Assembly: GCF_032362555.1 (NCBI RefSeq)
Contig: NC_083525.1
Coordinates: 6,247,501-6,311,500, forward strand
Source of the DNA: Amyelois transitella
Lineage: Eukaryota > Arthropoda > Insecta > Lepidoptera > Pyralidae
Direction: 5' to 3'
Length of the DNA: 64,000 bases
Of the stretch, positions 1-57,000 are shown piece after piece. The notes under the pieces were generated by a model that had not been told where the DNA came from, made no database searches, and was given only the letters and a program-made list of their open reading frames with translations. How positions within the stretch are numbered: the first letter of the stretch is position 1; every line of letters starts with the position of its first letter. The position numbers and the translations under genes were made by a program.

Positions 1-268
1 ATATATGTTATTCAGATAACTATTACTAAGTTGTATTAAATCAGTCAGACAGTTTGTAATGACCAAACACCCCTTAAACACAAGAATTACTCAGCCTCGA
101 GTATGAGCGCGATAGCACAATGCGCATGCGCGTCAGAGTAAAATATCTAATATTTGAAAAGTACTTACTGTTTTCAATTTCATATTTTTGCATATCTATT
201 CAAATACGATGAAATTTATAATTAAAATAATAATTAATCATTTTTAAAATAATATAATATATTGCATA

Positions 269-842
269 CTAGCTGTTGCCCGCGACGTCGTCCGCGTAAA
301 GTTCGAGTTGAATCTTAATCATACAGTCTGATACAGACAGACAGACAAAAAATGTAAAAAAAAATTCTCTATTTGTTTCAGTCAAAATATTAAATGTACA
401 GACAAAATATTTTTACCGTATGATTACATGTAATATTTTGATTTTCAGTTTTTTTTAATAAATACTCAAACAACACAAAAAAATAAACATTTTTAATAAA
501 AATTAATATATACATATCTTGTTATTGTTGGGACTCGAACTCGGACCGCCAACTTCACAGTCTCACGCGCTAACCACTGGACCATTGAAGCCGTTGGGGT
601 GGTATCGAAATTAAAGTAGACTACATACATATGGTCACGTCTATATCCCTTGCGGGGTAGACAGAGCCAACAGTCTTGAAAAGACTAAATGGCCACGTTC
701 AGCTATTTGGCTTAATGATAGAATTGAGATTCAAATAGTGATGTGAGGTTGCTCGCCCATCGCCTAAAAAAGAATCCCAAGTTTGTAAGCCTATTTGTAA
801 GGCCTTAGTCGCCTTTCACTTATATTTATATGTTATAGGTTT
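269..842 (-). mobile_element. Helitron-like copy with embedded SINE
   Basis: On the minus strand this ends in ...GCGGGCAACAGCTAG directly before T, the Helitron 3' signature (CTRR, here CTAG at 269-272). Upstream of that end it matches the Helitron at 1883-6789 in inverted orientation. Both carry the same SINE plus tRNA-like block at the same internal place (about 530-840 here). Homology to the larger copy stops near 842, so this copy is probably 5'-truncated. Confidence 0.65.
530..838 (-). mobile_element. SINE body joined to a tRNA-like segment
   Basis: Read on the minus strand, a SINE body (GGCGACTAAGG to CCCGCAAGGGATATAGACGTG) is followed by a tRNA-like stretch. That stretch has an A-box-like TGGTCCAGTGG and a B-box-like GGTCCGAGTTCGAGTCCC. 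The same composite occurs on the plus strand at 3540-3838 inside the larger Helitron, so it was part of the Helitron before the two copies separated. The tRNA-like part is not a functional tRNA gene. Confidence 0.7.
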
Positions 843-880
843 ACTATTACTATACTATTTTTTAATTGTTTATGATTTTA

Positions 881-1023
881 TTTTTACGGAAAATTCTGCC
901 AGCAACGACAATCTAACTGATGATGAGGACGATGACTTGAGTGGACAGTATAGAGATTTAATAAATGATGAAAATTCAAATGATTATTTTGATGATGAAG
1001 ATGATAAAGAGACAATAAAATAA
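881..1023 (+). pseudogene. Acidic C-terminal remnant, possibly of a transposase
   Basis: A short frame ending in TAA at 1021-1023 encodes a strongly acidic tail with runs such as TDDEDDDLSG and YFDDEDDKETIK. It has no start codon of its own in a convincing context. It lies between the nested Helitron copy and the right inverted repeat of the element at 1-1424. The likeliest reading is the last ~45 codons of that transposon's protein, the rest having been lost. No domain is recognised. Confidence 0.35.
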
Positions 1024-1424
1024 TTATTCAATTGATTAATCATAATTAATTATTTTTTTATTGAAATTATTATAATAGATATATTTTTTTAAATAAAATA
1101 AAAATCATTCTTTTTGAAAGGCTATTGCTACAAAAAAATTCATTTTCCCCTATTTATATGCAATATATTATATTATTTTAAAAATGATTAATTATTATTT
1201 TAATTATAAATTTCATCGTATTTGAATAGATATGCAAAAATATTAAATTGAAAACTGTAAGTACTTTTCAAATATTAGATATTTTACTCTGACGCGCATG
1301 CGCATTGTGCTATCGCGCTCATACTCGAGGCCGAGTAATTCTTGTATTTAAGGGGTGTTTGGTCATTACAAACTGTCTGACTGATTTAATACAACTTTGT
1401 AATAGTTATCTGAATAACATATAT

Positions 1425-1882
1425 AAAAGTCAGACATTTAAAAATAAATTAAGTTAATTTTTTTTTATAAAGCTTTAAAGCGTCTGACAAAAGTTTTGGC
1501 GCATGGAAAGCGTCTGACTTCTCTGATATGACTTCAGAGTAATATTCTATAAAATATATATAAAAATCAGTCATAAAAATTTAAGTTAAGTAACTGTGAT
1601 TTTTAGTTACCTTTCTCGCCTGGTACCTGCGCAGGTGTCACCGGGCAAGTCTCACAAACATGCAGGTATTAAAAGTACATGAAAGACTACTGAGAATCGA
1701 AAGATCCATTCTTTAGAAAATAAGTTGTGTCTTACGGCTCTGGGATCTTGCTCTAGCGGGGAGTCACTGTCAAAATATCACATTGCTGATTGCATGCATC
1801 AAGTCCGTACGTGTATTGAAACGAGTGTTTTTGTAAGAAATCAAATCATTATTTTTACCAGTAGGTAAATCACAAACTTTTA
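1425..1882. mobile_element. Left part of a (CCGAAG)-repeat transposon split by a Helitron
   Basis: From about 1740 to 1882 this matches, in inverted orientation, bases 6078-6390 inside the element at 3864-6559. Its continuation is found at 6790-7053, beyond the Helitron. Joining 1882 to 6790 restores the sequence seen in the related element, so the Helitron split it. Between 1425 and 1740 it has unique sequence, including short repeats of GCGTCTGAC, and no coding potential was recognised. Confidence 0.6.
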
Positions 1883-1897
1883 TCTATACATATAATA

Positions 1898-3172
1898 CAT
1901 ACATACATACATAAACTCACGCCTCTTTCCCGGAGGGGTAGGCAGAGACTACCTCTTTCCACTTGCCACGATCCCTGCATACTTCCTTTGCTTCATCCAC
2001 ATTCATAACTCTCCTCATGCAAGCTCGGCGGTTTCGGGCACTTTTGACCTGACCCTTCACCAGGACATCCTTAATTTGATCAAGATATGTTCGTCTAGGT
2101 CTTCCCAGCCCGACCTTTCCCTCCACACTCTCCTTGTATATCTGCTTAGTCAACCTGTTTTCATTCATCCTCTCCACATGACCGAACCATCTCAACATAC
2201 CCTTTTCTATTCCTGTAACTACATCTTCTTTCACATCACAACACTCCCTTATCACGCTGTTCCTTATCCGGTCACTCAATTTCACACCCAACATACTCCT
2301 TAACGCTCTCATTTCCACTGCATTTATTCTGCTTTCGTGCTTCTTTTGCCATACCCAACTTTCACTCCCATACATTAATGTCGGGACCAACACGCCCCTG
2401 TGCACAGCCAGTCGGGCCTTTTTGGATAGTTTCTGACTGCTCATAAAGGCATGCAAAGCTCCATTCACCATGTTCCCCGCGTTCACTCTCCTTTCAATAT
2501 CACTATCACACTTGCCATCTGATGTAAACTTTGATCCTAGATATACAAACTCTTTCACTTGCTCAACTTTTTCTCCTCCAATCAAAATATTACATGCTGT
2601 CATTTCTTTCTCCATTTCAAAAACCAGTGTTTTAGTTTTACTTACGTTCACTTTCATTCCTTTCTCTTTTAAAGCTTCATGCATACAGTTTACCATCTCC
2701 TGTAACTCCTCCGCTGATGACGCCAGTATAACCTGATCGTCGGCATAGAGCAGACATTTGACGAGTAATTCATTCATCCTTAATCCACTTTCAGACTCTT
2801 TCAAATCTGTCAAACAACTATCCATAAATAGGTTGAACAGCCACGGTGACGCAACACATCCCTGCCTAACACCTTTCTCAATCTTAAACCACTCAGTGTG
2901 CGCTCCGTTTATCCTGACACAAGCACTCGAATCCTCATATAAGGAATTCAGTGCTCGTATCAAGAGACTGCTCACCCCATGCATAGAAAGTGCTGACCAC
3001 AATTCATTCCTCTCAACTCTGTCATAGGCCTTTTCCAAATCCACGAAAGTGCAATAGACTTTTTGACTCTTGGCCAAAAACTTTTCGGCTATGCACCGCA
3101 AAGAAAAGACCTGATCAGCACATCCCATTCCCTTTCGAAATCCCGCTTGAGCATCCCATATTTTGTCATCAG
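1898..3172 (-). mobile_element. 5'-truncated LINE, copy 1 (reverse transcriptase ORF open)
   Basis: Flanked by an 11-bp target duplication TACATATAATA (1887-1897 and 3173-3183). On the minus strand an uninterrupted frame runs from the truncation point to TGA at 1917. It contains reverse transcriptase blocks: FVDLEKAYDRV, GVRQGCVASPWLF, the catalytic LLYADD and, near the end, LRWFGHVERM. The 5' part (endonuclease and N-terminal RT) is absent. The 3' end is a short UTR with TATG repeats. The style resembles RTE/CR1-like APE-type LINEs of insects; the clade is not certain. Confidence 0.9.
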
Positions 3173-3539
3173 TACATATAATAAAACAGTAAAAATATTT
3201 TGTCTGTAGGTACATTTAGTATTTTCGACTGAAATGGATAGAGGGACACTTAGAATGAATAATAGAAAGCAAAAATATTTTTTTTTTAATTTCTTGTCTG
3301 TCTGTCTGTATGTATGATCACGATTATCTCCGAAAGTACTAAACCGATTTACTTCAAACTTTCACCAATTGCTTTGTTTTAACTCAGAATAACATTTAAA
3401 GTTTGTTTCATCAAAATCGGTTCACAAAAAAAAAGTTATCGACATTTGAATGAACTCAAGGCATCAGTATGCCTGCAAATAAGTTGCGAAATTAAAAATT
3501 CAAAGTCATTTATCATTATACGACGGCATTATACCTATA

Positions 3540-3838
3540 ACATATATATATAAGTGAAAGGCGACTAAGGGATGGGCTTACAAACTTGGGATTCTTTTTT
3601 AGGCGATGGGCGAGCAACCTATCACTTTTTGAATCTCAATTCTATCATTAAGTCAAATAGCTGAACGTGGCCATTCAGACTTTTCAAGTCTGTTGGCTCT
3701 GTCTACCCCGCAAGGGATAAAGACGTGACCATATGTATGTAGTCTACTTTAATTTCTACACCAACGCAACGGCTTCGATGGTCCAGTGGTTAGCCCGTGA
3801 GACTGTGAAGTTGGCGGTCCAAGTTCGAATCCCAACAA
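3540..3838 (+). mobile_element. SINE body joined to a tRNA-like segment
   Basis: Same composite as at 530-838 but on the plus strand. The body runs from GGCGACTAAGGG through AGCTGAACGTGGCCATTC to CCCGCAAGGGATAAAGACGTG, then TATG repeats. A tRNA-like block follows with ATGGTCCAGTGGTTAG and GGTCCAAGTTCGAATCCC. It sits inside the Helitron at 1883-6789. Confidence 0.75.
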
Positions 3839-4132
3839 TTACAAGATATTTTTTATTATTAATAGTGTCCGACCGAAGGTCTATTTTTGGCCGAAGCCGA
3901 AGCCGAAGCCGATTAATCGGCTCTCGCCACAACCTTCGGCCGAAGCCGAAGCCGAAGCCGAAGGTTTATATTCTCTCAGCACTCAGTAATTAATTTTGTT
4001 CAATATTGTCTACAAGCTACAATTAATATTAAAATTATTTCAAAACCTCAATATTGAAGGTTTATATATTGACTGTCTCATATAAAAGTTGATATATCAT
4101 AGAGATGGTTGGTTTAGAGATAAATAAAAGTT

Positions 4133-6076
4133 AACCAGAGAGCTGACTAGGATCAGATGCCAGGATGGTAGCGTTGTGAAAGGAGAAGAATGTGTGCTAA
4201 AGATATGGAAGGACTATTTTGAGAGTTTATTTAAAAAAAATAAGAAAGAGTTCTGCTATAGCGAAGAAAAAGAGAATGAGATGGAAGGCGAAATTGAAAT
4301 GTTCTAAATTGTGGAAGCACTTAAGAGTATGAAAGCGGGTAAGGCTGCTGGGTATGATAGAGTGTCGGTCGAGATACTAAAAGCAGGAAAAGGCGTCGTA
4401 GCTAGACAGTTGTACTGCCTTTTCAATTTGTGTTGGAGAAGCGGCCGAGTACCAAAAGATTGGTGTAAGGCGGTTATCGTGCCACTTTATAAAGGAAAAG
4501 GGTCACAACTGGACTGCAAAAATTATCGTGGTATAAGCCTGCTTAGCGTTGTCGGCAAATTGTATGCTAAGGTATTGATTCAAAAAAGAATAGGACCACT
4601 CCATCTCTTTCCCATGGATGTCGTAAAAGGCGACTAAGGGATAGGCTTACAAACTTGGGATTCTTTTTTAGGCGATGGGCTAGCAACCTGTCACTAGTTG
4701 AATCTCAATTCTATCGTTAAGCCAAATAGCTGAACGTGGCCATTCAGTCTTTTCAAGACTGTTGGCTCTGTCTACCCCGCAAGGGATATAGACGTGACGG
4801 TATGTATGTATGTATGTAGGTATTGATTAATAGAGTCAGGAATGAAACTGATGACAAAATATGGGATGCTCAAGCGGGATTTCGAAAGGGAATGGGATGT
4901 ACTGATCAGGTCTTTTCTTTGCGGTGCATAGCCGAAAAGTTTTTGGCCAAGAGTCAAAAAGTCTACTGCACGTTCGTGGATTTGGAAAAGGCCTATGACA
5001 GAGTTGAGAGGATTGAATTGTGGTCAGCACTTTCTATGCATGGGGTGAGCAGTCTCTTAATACGAGCACTGAAATCCTTATATGAGGATTAGAGTGCTTG
5101 TGTCAGGATAAACGGAGCGCACACTGAGTGGTTTAAGATTGAGAAAGGCGTTAGGCAAGGATGTGTTGCGTCACCGTGGCTGTTCAACCTATTTATGGAT
5201 ATTTGTTTGACAGATTTGAAAGAGTCTGAAAGTGGATTAAGGATGAATGAGTTACTCGTCAAATGTTTGCTCAGCGGAGGAGTTACAGGAGATGGTAAAC
5301 TGTATGCATGAAGCTTTAAAAGAGAAAGGAATGAAAGTGAACGTAAGTAAAACTAAAACACTGGTTTTTGAAATGGAGAAAGAAATGACAGCATGTAATA
5401 TTTTGATTGGAGGAGAAAAAGTTGAGCAAGTGAAAGAGTTTGTTTATCTAGGATCAAAGTTTACATCAGATGGCAAGTGTGATAGTGATATTGAAAGGAG
5501 AGTGAACGCGGGGAACATGGTGAATGGAGCTTTGCATGCCTTTATGCGCAGTCAGAAACTATCCAAAAAGGCTCGACTGGCTGTGCACAGGGGCGTGTTG
5601 GTCCTGTATGGGAGTGAAAGTTGGGTATGGCAAAAGAAGCATGAACAGAATAAGTGCAGTGGAAATGAGAGCGTTAAGGAGTATGATGGGTGTGAAATTC
5701 AGTGACAGGATAAGGAACAGCGTGATAAGGGAATGTTGTGATGTGAAAGAAGATGTAGTTACAGGAATAGAAAAGGGTATGTTAAGATGGTTCGGTCATG
5801 TGGAGAGGATGAATGAAAGCAGGTTGACTAAGCCGATATACAAGGAGAGTGTGGAGGGAAAGGTCGGAGTGGGAAGACCTAGACGAACGTATCTTGATCA
5901 AATTAAGGACGTCCTGGTTAAGGGTCAGGTCAAAAGTACCCGAAACCGCCGAGCTTGTATCAAGAGAGTTATGAATGTGGATGAAGCGAAGGAAGTATGC
6001 AGAGATCGTGGCAAGTGGAAAGAGGTAGTCTCTGCCTACCCCTCCGGGAAAGAGGCGTGATTTTGTGTATGTATGT
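4133..6076 (+). mobile_element. 5'-truncated LINE, copy 2 (degenerate)
   Basis: Flanked by the 9-bp duplication ATAAAAGTT (4124-4132 and 6077-6085). It is the same LINE family as 1898-3172 and 47064-48877. Compared with the third copy it has an early stop (TTCTAA near 4303), a SINE insertion at 4581-4817, and a stop near 5090. A deletion near 5270 removes the catalytic YADD motif, and another near 5610 removes about nine bases. The C-terminal part (5524-6060) is still open. It cannot encode an active enzyme. Confidence 0.9.
4581..4817 (+). mobile_element. SINE inserted in LINE copy 2
   Basis: A 237-bp SINE flanked by the exact 11-bp duplication AGGTATTGATT (4570-4580 and 4818-4828). The uninterrupted site is seen in LINE copy 3 at about 47572-47582. 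It starts in AAGAATAGGACCACTCC, carries the internal GGCGACTAAGGG and AGCTGAACGTGGCC, and ends CCCGCAAGGGATATAGACGTGAC followed by TATG repeats. This is a precise definition of the SINE's ends in this genome. Confidence 0.93.
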
Positions 6077-6399
6077 ATAAAAGTTTGATTTTGTGATTTA
6101 CCTACTGGTAAAAAATAATGATTTGATTTCTTAATTATGTAATTGAATTACAGTAATTCACAAATTACAATTAGACCAATCAGTCTTTGTTTTACTCGAC
6201 TAGACCAAAACTAGACTAATAAATAAAATAAACAAACACTAACTTCTTACTAAATAATTAATTGTTGGAGTGTTTTGTTTGAATGTGATAAACACAAATT
6301 CAAAACAAAACACTCGTTTAAATACACGTACGGACTTGTTTTGATGCATGCAATCAGCAATGTGATATTTTGACAGTGACTCCCCGCCGCCTCATGACT

Positions 6400-6559
6400 T
6401 TCGTAACAGTTCGTTCAATCTCGACGGTCGCTCGGACCTTCGGCGAAACCTTCGGCTTCGGTCGGGTTTTGGGCCGAAGCCGAATGCTTCGCCGAAGGTG
6501 GATTTTTTGGCCGAAGGTGGCCGAAGCCGAAGCCGAAGCCGAAGCTTCGGTCGGACACT
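6400..6559 (+). repeat. CTTCGG/CCGAAG-rich subterminal repeat
   Basis: A dense run of CCGAAG and its complement in both orientations, capable of extensive self-pairing. It forms the right end of the transposon at 3864-6559. Related runs are at 3880-3965 and 6950-7045. A few units also occur at 46010-46032, directly against a truncated LINE. Confidence 0.8.
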
Positions 6560-6789
6560 AATTATTAAAAATATATTTTTTTTGTATTGTTTGAGTATTT
6601 TATGTAAAAAAACTGAAAATCAAAATACTACATACAATAAAACGGTAAAAATATTTTTTCTGTACATTTAATATTTTGACTGAAACGGATAGAGAATTTT
6701 TTTTTTACATTTTTTGTCTGTCTGTATCTGACTGTATGATTAAAATTCAACTCGAAATTTACGCGGACGAAGTCGCGGGCAACAGCTAG

Positions 6790-7053
6790 TTTATCTCTAA
6801 ACCAACCACCTCTATGATATATCATCAACTTCTATATGAGACAGTCAATATATAAACCTTCAATATTGAGGTTTTGAAATGATTTTAATATTAATTGTAG
6901 CTTGTAGACAATATTGAACAAAATTAAGTACTGAGTGCTGAGAGAATATAAACCTTCGGCTTCGGCTTCGGCTTCGGCCGAAGGTTGTGGCGATAGCCGA
7001 TTAATCGGCTTCGGCTTCGGCTTCGGCCAAAAATAGACCTTCGGTCGGACACT
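6790..7053 (-). mobile_element. Right part of the split (CCGAAG)-repeat transposon
   Basis: An inverted copy of 3864-4126: it carries the same CCGAAG runs and the same AT-rich stretch after them, and ends in CGGACACT at 7053. Its continuation is at 1740-1882 on the other side of the Helitron. Together with 3864-4126 it forms a ~260-bp inverted pair about 2.7 kb apart, able to fold as a large stem. Confidence 0.75.
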
Positions 7054-7254
7054 ATTAAAATGTTAGAATTTTATAGTATGATTGACTATCGTTAGAGGGA
7101 TTATCGTCACGCCATGAAGTCTTAAATATAAATAAATAACTTGTTAGTAAGCCCTGTTTATAACCAGAATTACATGGAATGGAAGCAAAATCTACCTACA
7201 ATATAGTTAACTAAAAACATGTATTCTCAAAAATGTCTTATATAAATTCTAATG

Positions 7255-11875: not shown

Positions 11876-12135
11876 GACGGCCTCTGTGGCGCAGCGGTAG
11901 TACGCTTGTCTGTGACACCGGAGGTCCCGGGTTCGAATCCCGGCCAGGGCATAATGAGAAAAGAACTTTCTCTGATTGGCCTGGGTCTTGGATGTTTATC
12001 TATATAAGTATTTATTATAAAATATAGTATCGTTGAGTTAGTATCTCGTAACACAAGTCTCGAACTTACTTCGAGGCTAACTCAATCAGTGTAATTTATC
12101 CCGTATATATTTATATTTATATATTTATTTATTTA
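11876..12135 (+). mobile_element. tRNA-derived SINE (family 2)
   Basis: The head is tRNA-like, with A box TGGCGCAGCGG and B box GGTTCGAATCCCGG. A conserved body follows with TGGCCTGGGTCTTGGATG and ACTTACTTCGAGGCTAACTC, then an AT-rich TATTTAT tail. Two more good copies are at 16643 and 23831. It is not a tRNA gene: the fold is incomplete and the body follows directly. Confidence 0.9.
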
Positions 12136-16700: not shown

Positions 16701-19700
16701 GGATCCCGGCCAGGGCATGATGACAAAAGAACTTTTTCTGATTGGCCTGGGTCTTGGATGTTTATTTATATAAGTATTTATTATATAAAAAATATAGTAT
16801 CGTTGAGTTAGTATCTCGTAACACAAGTCTCGAACTTACTTCGAGGCTAACTCAATCTGTGTAATTTGTCCCGTATATATATATTTATTTATATTCATTT
16901 TAAAACATCCAAAGTACCGAGAACCACACGGCACGATAACTACTAGTGTGTGGGAAAAGGAATGTATTAGGTATGTATATATTACCTGGGCGACTTATCT
17001 ATAATGCTTTGTAAATATGGTAAACACATCGTCTGCTCCTTTGTTAATCCCATAAGCGTTTCTGAAAGACAACAAAAAAAGTTGGACAAGGTAAATACAC
17101 AAAGTACCAAAATAAAAATTAAGTATCTAACACTTTATTATTTTTTTACGGGTTAAGCCAAGATCAACTGTTTTGGCGCCAAATTACGAGGAGGGTCGAA
17201 CCGAAATAGAGAACAGGCACGGAAAAAGAAATTTACGGGTACTGAGTACAAAGTAATTAAAAAAAAAACTAAAACGACTAAACCTTTCGACAAAAGGTAG
17301 GTAGTGCCCTCAGATAATTGAATACATATACCTACAGTTAGTTTAAATCTAATAGTAAAATTTCCGAAATGCTCGCGGAAACAGAAATTTGCAGGATTTA
17401 TCGTTTTAGCCTCTGGCCCTACTCAAGATATAAGTCAAAGATAAATTGTAGATAGAGGTCAGTGACTTACGGCAGACAGAGTAACTGGTACACTGTACAA
17501 TATAAGGGTAGACGTCGAAGGTCCGTCCTGGACAGGAACGGAACTTCTTCATCAGGATGTCCACCTCCTTGTTGAATGTAATCTCGTAACCTTCTATAGC
17601 TCGCTTGCCGTAATTAGGGGTCGCTATCTTGCGGTGTTTCCGCCATGTTGGACCTTTAAAAAATACATACATACATAAATAAAATTACGCCTCTTTCCCG
17701 GAGGGGTAGGCAGAGACTACCTCTTTCCACTTGCCACGATATCTGCATACTACCTTCGCTTCATCCACATTCATAACTCTCTTCATGCAAGCTCAGCGAT
17801 TTCGGGTACTTTTGACCTTTAAAAAATGTGGATAGGAAATGGAAATACCTATATTATAAGATGATATGTGGCAGTCCAAGCATAAAGGTACCACTTGGGT
17901 GGTATTGAGTTAAGGCCATATTTGGATAGTTAAATAGTTGGTTGATCATATGTAATAAAAAAAAAATTAATCATAATAACATTTAGCGGAATAAAAAATT
18001 TTCAAAGTTCACACTTACAAAAATCAAATTGTTGGGAAACAGGCATTGAAAGTTTAAGCTGTATTATCTAAAGATCTAGTTGTCAGTTACATAGATTATT
18101 ATTTATTATTATAGAGCAATATGTTTAGTATAAAATCAATTAGTTAATGTTATGGAAACATTTTCGAATAAAAAAATAGAAGCTTAAAACTAACTTTATA
18201 ATAAGTTTAGTAAAAGGGCCCAGTTGAATACAATAAAATTTTAAATTGTAATAGCTAGAGATCAAGATGTCAGTTACATAGATTCTTATTTATAATAATA
18301 GAGAAATATATTAAGTATAAAATCGACTAGTTTTTATTATGGCAACACTATCGAATAAAAAAATAAAAACTTAAAACTAATTGGTAGTTAGTTATGTTAA
18401 GTTTAGGAAATGGGTCGAGTTGACCGAAATTAGGTTATATTTCGCGTACATTCTAACACAATTTTATTAAGAATAAACTACTCGTAGGACATTATACAAA
18501 AACAGATTAAATTTACGTCAAAAGAATAAAAATTAATGAATTAAAAGTCATTAATACGACACATTACAAAAAAAAAGAATTAACCTATTACAGGTTTCAA
18601 AAGTCAGAATTAAATCTCAAATATTTTCTGACCTGCGCTTTGGACAAAAATATGACCCGTTTCTTACTTGATTCCTATGACCGACTTCCTTGCAGTATGA
18701 ACAAGTTGGCGTTTTTCTAACACTCTTAGCAATTTTATTGGATGATGTATTAGAAGTAGAAGTAGTTGTTCCTTCTACTACACTACATTGACTAGGAGTG
18801 GATATGTCGTCTAAGACTATTGGTTTGGGACACAAAATATCTTTAGATTCTTCTTCGACAAATTCACGTATTTTGTTATACAAATACCATTGCCTTTCTA
18901 TAGTCATACCTGACGGGAATATTTCTGTTGGAAGTTGGTCATATACTTTATTTGGATTTAAAACTTTTGCCACGACCGATGGTAGCATTTCAGAAATATT
19001 TTTGTAGCAAAGCATGTGCCCTTTGTTATTTGCGTTAGATTCAAAATGGGAAAATGTTAATAGCTGGCTTATGGTAGAAGCATCTGATTGAAAAAATTTT
19101 GCCCAGTCATACATTTTTATAAAAGTATCACCTTTCTCATTACCTGTGAGAACAGCTGTAATTGCGTTAGTTTTTGGACAAGCCTGAACTGCGGCTACAA
19201 CCAAATCCATTATTTTATTAGATTCTCTATTTCTAAAACTTTTTTTAAAAAGTCCAAAGTACATGTCTGGGGCGAACTTGGTATGCCCTACGGGAAGGAA
19301 TGACATGCGAAATGACCGATGCCTACCTGTAACAACTCGCCACGTAGCATACTGCATAACATAGTTATTTTATTTTGCCCAGCACAGTTATCAGCGTGGC
19401 ACACAACATCGGTTTCACCTAATCCGAAATTTGCAAAAAAATGATGCAGCAATGAAATGATTACGTTAGCCCCTTTACCTGTATGACATGATTCAGGGAT
19501 AATATATAAGACAAATTTCTTTAATGGCTCTACAGAAACACCAAATAAACTGACTTTGAACCCTGTCAAAAAATATAATGGCCCTATCTGTTGAGAGCTA
19601 TGTGGTAAATGAACTTGCTGAGCAAAATCAAAAGAGTAAGAAAGATTCAGAGAATGAATCCCTTACACATCTGATTATATCACTGTAATATTTTCTTTCA

Positions 19701-47063: not shown

Positions 47064-48877
47064 AGACTTTCAGTCAAATCTGAAAGTATTCTGGAAATCC
47101 GTAAGGTCAGCCCGAGGAAATACTATAACCAGAGAGCTGACTAGGATCAGATGCCAGGATGGTAGCGTTGTGAAAGGAGAAGAATGTGTACTAAAGATAT
47201 GGAAGGACTATTTTGAAAGTTTATTTGAAAAAAAGGAAGGAAATAAGAAAGATTTCTGCTATAGCGAAGAAAAAGAGAATGAGATGGAAGGCGAAATTGA
47301 AATGTTCGAAATTGTGGAAGCACTTAAGAGTATGAAAGCGGGAAAGGCTGCTGGGTGTGATAGAGTGTCGGTCGAGATGCTTAAAGCAGGAAAAGGCGTA
47401 GTAGCTAGTCAGTTGTACTGCCTTTTCAATTTGTGTTGGAGAAGCGGCCGAGTACCAAAAGATTGGTGTAAGGCTGTTATCGTGCCACTTTACAAAGGAA
47501 AAGGGTCACAGCTGGACTGCAAAAATTATCGTGGTATAAGCCTGCTTAGCGTCGTCGGCAAATTGTATGCTAAGGTATTGATTAATAGAGTCAGGAATGA
47601 AACTGATGACAAAATATGGGATGCTCAAGCGGGATTTCGAAAGGGAATGGGATGTACTGATCAGGTCTTTTCCTTGCGGTGCATAGCCGAAAAGTTTTTG
47701 GCCAAGAGTCAAAAGTCTATTGCACATTCGTAGATCTGGAAAAGGCCTATGACAGAGTTGAGAGGAATGAATTGTGGTCAGCACTTTCTATGCATGGGGT
47801 GAGCAGTCTCTTAATACGAGCACTGAAATCCTTATATGAGGATTCGAGTGCTTGTGTCAGGATAAACGGAGCGCACACTGAGTGGTTTAAGATTGAGAAA
47901 GGCGTTAGGCAAGGATGTGTTGCGTCACCGTGGCTGTTCAACCTATTTATGGATAGCTGTTTGACAGATTTGAAAGAGTCTAAAAGTGGATTAAGGATGA
48001 ATGAGTTACTCGTCAAATGTCTGCTCTATGCCGACGATCAGGTTATACTGGCGTCATCAGCGGAGGAGTTACAGGAGATGGTAAACTGTATGCATGAAGC
48101 TTTAAAAGAGAAAGGAATGAAAGTGAACGTAAGTAAAACTAAAACACTGGTTTTTGAAATGGAGAAAGAAATGACAGCATGTAATATTTTGATTGGAGGA
48201 GAAAAAGTGGAGCAAGTGAAAGAGTTTGTATATCTAGGATCAAAGTTTACATCAGATGGCAAGTATGATAGTGATATTGAAAGGAGAGTGAACGCGGGGA
48301 ACATGGTGAATGGAGCTTTGCATGCCTTTATGAGCAGTCAGAAACTATCCAAAAAGGCTCGACTGGCTGTGCACAGGGGCGTGTTGGTCCCGACATTAAT
48401 GTATGGGAGTGAAAGTTGGGTATGGCAAAAGAAGCATGAAAGCAGAATAAATGCAGTGGAAATGAGAGCGTTAAGGAGTATGATGGGTGTGAAATTGAGT
48501 GACAGGATAAGGAACAGCGTGATAAGGGAATGTTGTGATGTGAAAGAAGATGTAGTTACAGGAATAGAAAAGGGTATGTTAAGATGGTTCGGTCATGTGG
48601 AGAGGATGAATGAAAGCAGGTTGACTAAGCAGATATACAAGGAGAGTGTGGAGGGAAAGGTCGGAGTGGGAAGACCTAGACGAACGTATCTTGATCAAAT
48701 TAAGGACGTCCTGGTAAAGGGTCAGGTCAAAAGTACCCGAAACCGCCGAGCTTGTATGAAGAGAGTTATGAATGTGGACGAAGCGAAAGAAGTATGCAGA
48801 GATCGTGGCAAGTGGAAAGAGGTAGTCTCTGCCTACCCCTCCGGGAAAGAGGCGTGATTTTATGTATGTATGTATGT
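47064..48877 (+). mobile_element. 5'-truncated LINE, copy 3 (longest; one frameshift)
   Basis: Flanked by the 10-bp duplication AAGTTTAGTG (47054-47063 and 48878-48887). Coding sequence runs from the first bases (frame at 47065) to TGA at 48857. It is broken only by loss of one A in a run near 47713, which splits it into 47065-47733 and 47679-48857. Together they cover the linker before RT, LYKGKGSQLDCKNYRGISLL, the RT fingers and palm with LLYADD, and the C-terminal LRWFGHVERM. The endonuclease is missing. This copy is the best reference for the family here. Confidence 0.93.
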
Positions 48878-48887
48878 AAGTTTAGTG

Positions 48888-54085: not shown

Positions 54086-57000
54086 ATGCCTTCATTGTAT
54101 ACGTTTTCGCGGAGTGATAGTGAGATCCTTCAGGAGCTGCTACGGGTATTCAGCTCTGGAAGAGGAACCGCTCGTGAGCAATGGACCCTGCAAGCTGAGG
54201 TATTGGTAGAACCAGTCGGGTGGGATGCGTTATGGAAACTGTCCAAAGATTTTTGCAAGAAGTTTGGTAAGTAATTATATACACATCTTTTGTTCGCTGC
54301 GGTTGGGACCAGCCTTTTCACACTGATTAGAACTTTCTTGACATTTGATTTTAATTGTTATATCCCATTATTTGATAGTGTTTGCAACTGCTTACAACAT
54401 GGTCAAAATAAAAAATGTTAGTGTCAGCATGTCAAGCAGTAAAATTGATAAAATTCAATTAACAGTAGGTTTTCATTTGCTTGAATAACACTTTTCATAC
54501 AATTCTGTCATAGGTTTTCCGAACCCCTCACCAATATAATAAACACCAGGGGAATATTTTTTTTTTTCAGAAGTGAGATTCCCCTGCATTGCCTGCGTAA
54601 CCGTCACTTCGGTTGACTTTGAAGCTCTATCAGCCTGTGTTGAGGTCCTGAGTGTTCAGCACGAAGCAGTGTCCCTTCCAGAGACGGTTGAAGATGTTCC
54701 GCTTATTGAACTGTGGCCAACTACTAAACAGCGGGAGCAGTGTATAAATGCTGCTACAACAGCAGAGTTTATAGATCTGTTGAGGTTTGTAATTTCAATT
54801 TTTTCATTTTAAATTTAACTGACTTACCCACCTTTGTAAGGGATTTTATAGTTACAATCATAGGTAGACTTAGATCTACCAGAGATGATGTTGATAGAAA
54901 GAAGAGGTTGAATATTTAATTAACATTAACAGAATATGAATTATATATGGTTAACTATACTCAAAACTCAAACAAATCAACCTACACTCAAACCTATTTA
55001 CTTTCAAACTACCTGCCCATCTACTACTGAATTTATTTCTGTGTCATGTTACAGGTTTTATTATGACGAAATATGGATGCCGTGGGATGACCAAGACGAA
55101 AAGGTGCTCCTTCCGAACACCATAGAGGACCGCATGAAGCTCTGGTCGGAGCTCCACAACGGCAGCATACCACACTGTGTAGCGAGATCAATAACCTTAC
55201 TGAGGAGTAGTGCTATACATGCTCATGAGAAACTGAAGGAGCTGGACTCCTCACTGTGTGAGATGAATATTGCTGATGAAGATGGTAACTCAAATAGATC
55301 TATCAATTTCTACACTCCATTCTGTGATGTTTTCTCTATGTTGCACTCAAGCAGCCAATCACAGCGGAGTATCATTAACTCTGAATCAACTGCCCATTTA
55401 AAAAATATAATAATTTGTACTCAAGCTATATTGAGAAGTGTCAAATATGAAATTCTTATACCAAGCATTTTGGTAATTTTCAATGCACTAGTAATATAAG
55501 TGCTTAATCTTAGTGCTCTGTTAATGGTCTGTTTCAACTTTATCAGGAATTATAAACTTTAAGCAGAGAATCACTTGCTGGTCATCTTAACAACTTTAAA
55601 AAAATGAATCTTTTTTGTTTTAGATTCACTCTTACCTCCAAATTACATATCACTCTGTGCGGAAATGAATGCGCGGTTAGATGGAATCATGTCTAAGTGG
55701 ACCCTTTATGAGAACCCACTTATCAGGGAACAATATCTAGCGAAAACCAGGAATAAATATCAGAAGAATAAAAGCAAAAGACATGTAAGTAATATCAGTA
55801 TTTCTATTTAGAGTTTTTCATATGATTATTACTCATATGTTGATTCAGAGATGGAGAGATCTAGCCAAGAAAAAAGATGGTGCCATAGATAAAATATAAT
55901 TAAAGCCTTTATATATATGAAGATAGAAATTTGACCCCTATGAGTAAATATTTCCCGGTCTCTATTTGATTCTTAATTCTATCATTAAGCCAAATAGCAA
56001 AACTTTTGAACTGTTGACTTTGCCTACTCTGCAAGGGACATAGACGTGATTATATATATGTATGTATGTTTGTATGATAAGTCGTTAGGTCAAAAAGATT
56101 TATTCAAAAAGCAAAAGATTAATTTCAAAATGTGTTTTTGAATAAAATTAAACTAACTATTATTTACAGGTAGTAGCACTCTGGCAAGGCGGCTCGCCAT
56201 CAGAATACAAGCAGATCTCAAATTTCCTCCTGTCCCGTCTTACCAATGAACACACCCTGACCATGATGACGTCAGCTGATGATGCCCTCGCCCTGGAGCC
56301 AGAAGATGTTGTTGTGTGCAGCGACAACTATGAGATTCCCGAGATGCCGCTATCACAAGTGTCCATATGCAGTTTTAATGGTAAGAGGCATCAACTGTCA
56401 GATAGGGATGTTGCGCCACCTTGACCATTCAACCTATTCATATAAAATTTCTATACATTAATGTAGGAATCCTGATGCTTCACTCTCTTTATTTTTAGAA
56501 ATTCCTGAGACGCCACTGTCGCAAGTTTCTATAAGCAGTTTTTATGGTAAAAGGTTACTGTTAAAATATTCCGTGTGGTTCTCGGCACTTGAAAATTGGA
56601 CAACTCCATCTCTTTCCCATGAATGCCGTAAAAGACCAATAAGGGGAAAGGCATATCCATCATTTCTGCAGCGTTTACCCTCACAGCAATGGTAAACTAC
56701 TTGATACTTATTTTGATAATATTGCAGGTTCAACCCTAAAGGCAACAGATATGAGATCATGCCTTCTAATGCTCAGCGAAGAATGCCGACTGCAAGACCT
56801 AACCCTTCACTGCTCGCAAGTAAATACTATAGTGGTCATGCGAAGTGGAAACTTACATATTAGCAAGTGTTCATTTTTGGATGATTCCGAAAGCTCTCAG
56901 GTTAGTTTCTATTAAAGTTAAATCTTTTTATAGCTTTTTTAAACACATCCTTGTTAGAATATAGAGAAATACTCGTGAACTCCTTAATTCTTCAAATAAT

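Follow-up and report, generated by a model that had tools for sequence, protein, structure and literature searches.

The nest at the start of the window

The window analysed is a stretch of 64,000 nucleotides (C21:6247501-6311500), and the genome searched comprises 327 Mb in 33 contigs. The types of Helitron and SINE present suggest that this genome is lepidopteran. A nest of transposons lies at the beginning of the window. It extends from C21:6246993, upstream of the window, to window position 7054, about 7.56 kb overall. The elements were recovered by comparison of the window with itself and by inspection of the sequence, and the target site duplications (TSDs) were found by exact search. 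In the following list, a composite is a CCGAAG-repeat element that holds the Helitron.

1-1755, no strand assigned: large-TIR transposon, right part, inserted in the left arm of element A; its start lies about 330 bp upstream of the window
269-843, minus strand: a second copy of the Helitron, within the large-TIR element; pieces 89.7% and 90.6% identical to the first Helitron
1756-1882, minus strand: left inner piece of A, bounded by the large-TIR insertion and the Helitron; agrees with each of seven genomic composites at 126 of 127 bases
1883-6789, plus strand: non-autonomous Helitron inside A, with TC...CTAG ends and A and T flanks; about 915 bp without its insertions
1898-3172, minus strand: LINE1; 11-bp TSD TACATATAATA at 1887-1897 and 3173-3183
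3863-6560, plus strand: inner CCGAAG element B, free of Helitron; 8-bp TSD ATTATTAA at 3855-3862 and 6561-6568
4133-6076, plus strand: LINE2 in B; 9-bp TSD ATAAAAGTT at 4124-4132 and 6077-6085
4581-4817, plus strand: SINE in LINE2; 11-bp TSD AGGTATTGATT at 4570-4580 and 4818-4828
6790-7054, minus strand: right arm of A, running to its terminal TAGTGTCCGACCG repeat; TSD copy TTAAAATG at 7055-7062
47126-48883: third LINE copy, with the SINE site empty and the reverse transcriptase split over two overlapping frames

The nest in the first ~7 kb had been described in a first-pass annotation and is genuine, with the element identities, the nesting and most junctions correctly given. The coordinates were nearly right: the right end of A moves from 7053 to 7054, and B from 3864-6559 to 3863-6560. 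The left piece of A, placed from 1740, actually starts at 1756, and positions 1740-1755 form the end of a different transposon. The separate target duplication claimed for each LINE and SINE step was borne out as exact duplications of 9-11 bp. The 8-bp duplication around B and the large-TIR element splitting A had been overlooked.

The left end of A lies in the upstream DNA, 508 bp ahead of the first window base (C21:6246993). Its flank TTAAAATG is the same as window 7055-7062, giving a matching 8-bp duplication. Truncation of A at 1740 was considered and ruled out on this located end and its TSD; A is complete and is split by the large-TIR element. The terminal inverted repeats of hAT transposons are of the TAGNG/CAGNG type, and TAGTGTCCGACCGAAG is present at both ends of the CCGAAG element. 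The 8-bp duplication characteristic of hAT elements is exact for A in the window, for B (ATTATTAA) and for 16 of 18 composites elsewhere whose two ends could be bounded. The element is accordingly called hAT-like, a label that refers to its end sequence and TSD length.

The large-TIR element spans C21:6247169 to window 1755, with inverted repeats of ~600 bp (595 bp at 98.8%) and an apparent 3-bp duplication GCG. The second Helitron copy within it has its 3' end CTAG at 269, and a search for its 5' end found none. A remnant of an acidic reading frame is seen in the large-TIR element at about 880-1023.

The Helitron inside A begins with TC at 1883 and terminates with CTAG at 6786-6789, in agreement with the 5' TC and 3' CTRR ends that define such elements. 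It lies between A and T without a target duplication, and its empty site is present in B, with the site sequence matched exactly at 17 places in the genome. The last 60 bases were checked for a 3' hairpin and fold with a z-score of -1.40. All open reading frames of at least 130 amino acids within 1883-6789 lie in or overlap LINE1 or LINE2, and the window copy is therefore non-autonomous. The Helitron also contains, at about 3530-3858, a SINE fragment and then a tRNA-like stretch with what we take to be A-box-like and B-box-like motifs; both are found in all seven composites compared. No match was obtained between the last 221 bases of the Helitron and phage records, and the Helitron/CCGAAG junction occurred 0 times in viral contigs.

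LINE1 encodes a reverse transcriptase (RVT_1, E 2.4e-34) and is without the 5' part that LINE2 has. LINE2 belongs to the same family, with 96.99% identity to LINE1 and 98.13% to the third copy (47.1-48.9 kb) over about 1.2 kb. The 3' end of the SINE (4766-4818) resembles the 3' end of the LINE (1896-1947) over 53 bp at 81%, and both end in ATGT repeats. This likeness is as expected if the enzyme of the LINE family copied the SINE.

Elsewhere in the window, open reading frames matching Pfam DUF7869 and SHCBP_N are located at 18617-19369 (minus strand) and 54930-55499 (plus strand), and a tRNA-His gene or copy lies at 11880-11951.

The Helitron/CCGAAG composite across the genome

Of 160 candidates for window 1740-1882, 40 were scored as matches, and eight loci were taken, the window and seven others. 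The same Helitron is present at the same base in all seven. With LINE1 and B removed, the host in the window is 98.1-99.2% identical to these composites. The joined flanks match uninterrupted copies elsewhere, as the first-pass annotation had predicted. The 31-base junction formed by the 3' end of the Helitron and the CCGAAG arm was found at 115 places, the window included (up to 2 mismatches; 55 forward, 60 reverse), while the reversed-pattern control gave 0. Among the 100 of these places that were listed, the junction is spread over 30 of the 33 contigs. Twelve more composites were taken as the first twelve junction places listed, all on contigs 1-3. This gave 19 fetched composites beyond the window, of which 18 were bounded; one (L012) was dropped because no left end could be located in the stretch taken. 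The junction places beyond these 19 copies and the window were seen only as 31-base matches.

Exact 8-bp duplications lie immediately outside the CCGAAG ends, at different places in the genome, in 16 of the 18 bounded composites. The two others are L015, which has no plain 8-bp TSD, and L008, which has no plain TSD, a duplicated right end, and a left flank CTGATGAG that recurs 3 bp inside the outer right end. The 8-bp duplication of L018, CGGTCGGA, resembles the terminal repeat of the same CCGAAG family, and this copy may sit in the end of a sister copy. The two marks of a composite are both seen: the outer ends make the TSD, and dispersed copies share the inner junction. Spreading of the composite with the Helitron as cargo is shown for these 16 of 18 copies, and the junction is found at the 115 places.

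The most telling sign of movement as a unit is a 21-bp deletion over the hAT/Helitron junction that is common to L015, L016 and L021 (3 of 18). As aligned, it takes 17 arm bases and the first 4 Helitron bases including TC, with a placement ambiguous by ~2 bp. The 5' Helitron junction is intact in the other 15. L016 and L021, two of the three carriers, have their own exact duplications. The movement of these copies came later than the loss of the Helitron 5' end.

Linkage across the junction is further evidence of movement as a unit. Variants found in only two of 19 rows fall on both sides of the junction in the window with L006, and likewise in L007 with L014. In the four-gamete test, 57 of 60 arm-Helitron pairs of informative sites are compatible and 3 of 60 are incompatible; failures amount to 15 of 105 pairs within the Helitron and 0 of 6 within the arms. 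The pairwise distances of arm and Helitron hardly correlate (r 0.07) and give no support by themselves, though the arms have only 4 informative sites. This, the 3 incompatible pairs and the lack of a plain TSD in L008 and L015 count against movement as a unit. All 18 bounded copies have one Helitron orientation and family, with a mean divergence of 1.5% for the Helitron and 0.8% for the arms.

These data bear on the possibility that Helitrons entered many CCGAAG elements repeatedly and independently at one identical position, through a strong target preference. The site lies between A and T, the usual Helitron target, and flanking AT dinucleotides are mentioned for Helitrons (PMC4344730). However, variants shared among copies lie on either side of the junction and a shared deletion spans it, and the single orientation and family argue in the same direction. 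Independent insertion was rejected on the two-sided variants and the deletion, and we regard it as very improbable. Segmental duplication or an assembly artefact as the source of the copies is the least probable of the explanations weighed and was rejected, as 16 of 18 copies have different flanks with exact 8-bp duplications and the listed junction places are dispersed over nearly all contigs.

Order of the insertions

Because the junction recurs at 115 places and the unit shows evidence of having been copied, the outer step did not take place at the window locus. The first-pass annotation had the Helitron splitting a CCGAAG transposon resident here, and this part of the history has to be abandoned. 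In contrast, the sites of LINE1 and of B are empty in all 18 bounded composites, and so is the site of the large-TIR element. On this ground the three insertions look local to the window copy.

Every empty site had also been said to be visible in the window. This holds for the SINE, whose site is unoccupied in the third LINE copy (47560-47610), and for the Helitron, whose empty site is in B at about 4111-4132. The LINE2 site is seen only in part, in A at 1873-1882. No clean unoccupied site for LINE1 or B was found within the window, where the related Helitron pieces are 80-91% alike.

The position of LINE2 in B deserves separate attention. The Helitron-free CCGAAG site has 30 matches, the window's own included, when as many as 3 mismatches are allowed, all read as site sequences: 17 are exact, 4 have one mismatch, 7 have two and 2 have three. 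At 5 of these 30, the window among them, ..TAAAAGTTAA stands in place of ..TAAAAGTTTG, and a sixth match ends like the five with one more difference. The resulting read ..AAAAGTTAA, as at the LINE2 junction, occurs in the window and at C2:9511962, C9:1003287, C10:11256259 and C22:1764102, and its AA is where LINE2 begins in B. The five identical junction reads suggest that LINE2 entered the element of B before B landed and was copied with it, so that B would have carried LINE2 from an earlier insertion. Alternatively, the read may reflect a variant sequence of the CCGAAG element. The nesting by itself fits an entry of LINE2 either before or after the landing of B, and we lean towards before. 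The entry of LINE2 into the element of B preceded that of the SINE into LINE2, unless the LINE brought the SINE along.

Taken together, these observations allow us to propose the following history. The Helitron would have inserted, elsewhere in the genome, between A and T of a non-autonomous hAT-like transposon with TAGTGTCCGACCG ends, CCGAAG repeats and an 8-bp TSD. The composite then multiplied through the outer hAT-like ends, as 16 of the 18 bounded copies show, with the Helitron, its SINE fragment and its tRNA-like stretch as passive cargo. An autonomous relative presumably provided the transposase in trans. One composite landed at the window locus with the duplication TTAAAATG. LINE1, the Helitron-free sister B and the large-TIR element inserted into this copy, presumably after landing. 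B holds LINE2, which holds the SINE, and probably brought LINE2 along. We assign a probability of about 0.93 to the main reading, that the composite spread by its hAT-like ends, landed here and then received LINE1, B and the large-TIR element.

The alternative next in probability is a series of stepwise local insertions, beginning with the Helitron in a resident CCGAAG element. The nesting and the TSDs on which it was built are real, and the three sites empty in the other copies agree with it. However, it is opposed by the recurrent Helitron junction with its shared variants and shared deletion, and also by the LINE2-junction read at five places, and we consider it very unlikely. The complete relative chronology that had been read from this one stretch is likewise not retained: the outer step is not local, and the nest does not give the order of LINE1, B and the large-TIR element.

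A broader proposal is that the hAT-like family repeatedly recruits and multiplies cargo. It would comprise a Helitron branch (115 places) and a branch with the LINE, with or without the SINE (5 places including the window), the branches inserting into each other. We would give this proposal even odds. If it is true, nests of this kind would be built by the docking of pre-loaded units and not by single insertions.

Comparison with known systems

The order of nesting is used for ranking transposon families by age. The TinT analysis is one such case (PMC4016481). At the present locus, a nest of five levels looks clean but yields a false local history, since the two outer layers had moved together. 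The composite hidden in the nest is exposed by a count of junction copies across the genome. The case also presents a rolling-circle element whose own end was already gone while its host transposon kept spreading it.

The Helitron resembles the Hel-2 Helitrons of Lepidoptera (PMC4344730) in the 5' TC, the 3' CTAG, the A and T flanks and the CTGT repeat, which reads TTGTCTGTCTGTCTG in the window. The likeness is one of ends and repeat, and the Helitron described here differs in that it rides in an element of the cut-and-paste type. No description of a Helitron carried by a hAT element was found in the titles and abstract openings of the papers listed, in a search that was light on subscription journals.

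Cargo nesting as such has published precedent in two reports (PMC4016481, PMC6887750). Subfamilies 3 and 4 of the Metulj SINE of Heliconius are cases of a transposable element inside another active element that kept mobilising, and the repeat around subfamily 4 has a Helitron-like element in it as well (PMC4016481). In those cases a SINE is carried by a Mariner or by an unidentified repeat, while here the cargo is a Helitron and its carrier is a hAT-like element whose ends and TSDs are defined. The MER6 MITE with a V-SINE domain (PMC6887750) is similar in that a DNA transposon amplified an embedded foreign element. However, MER6 is a Mariner of mammals that is no longer active, while the copies described here are about 1% apart.
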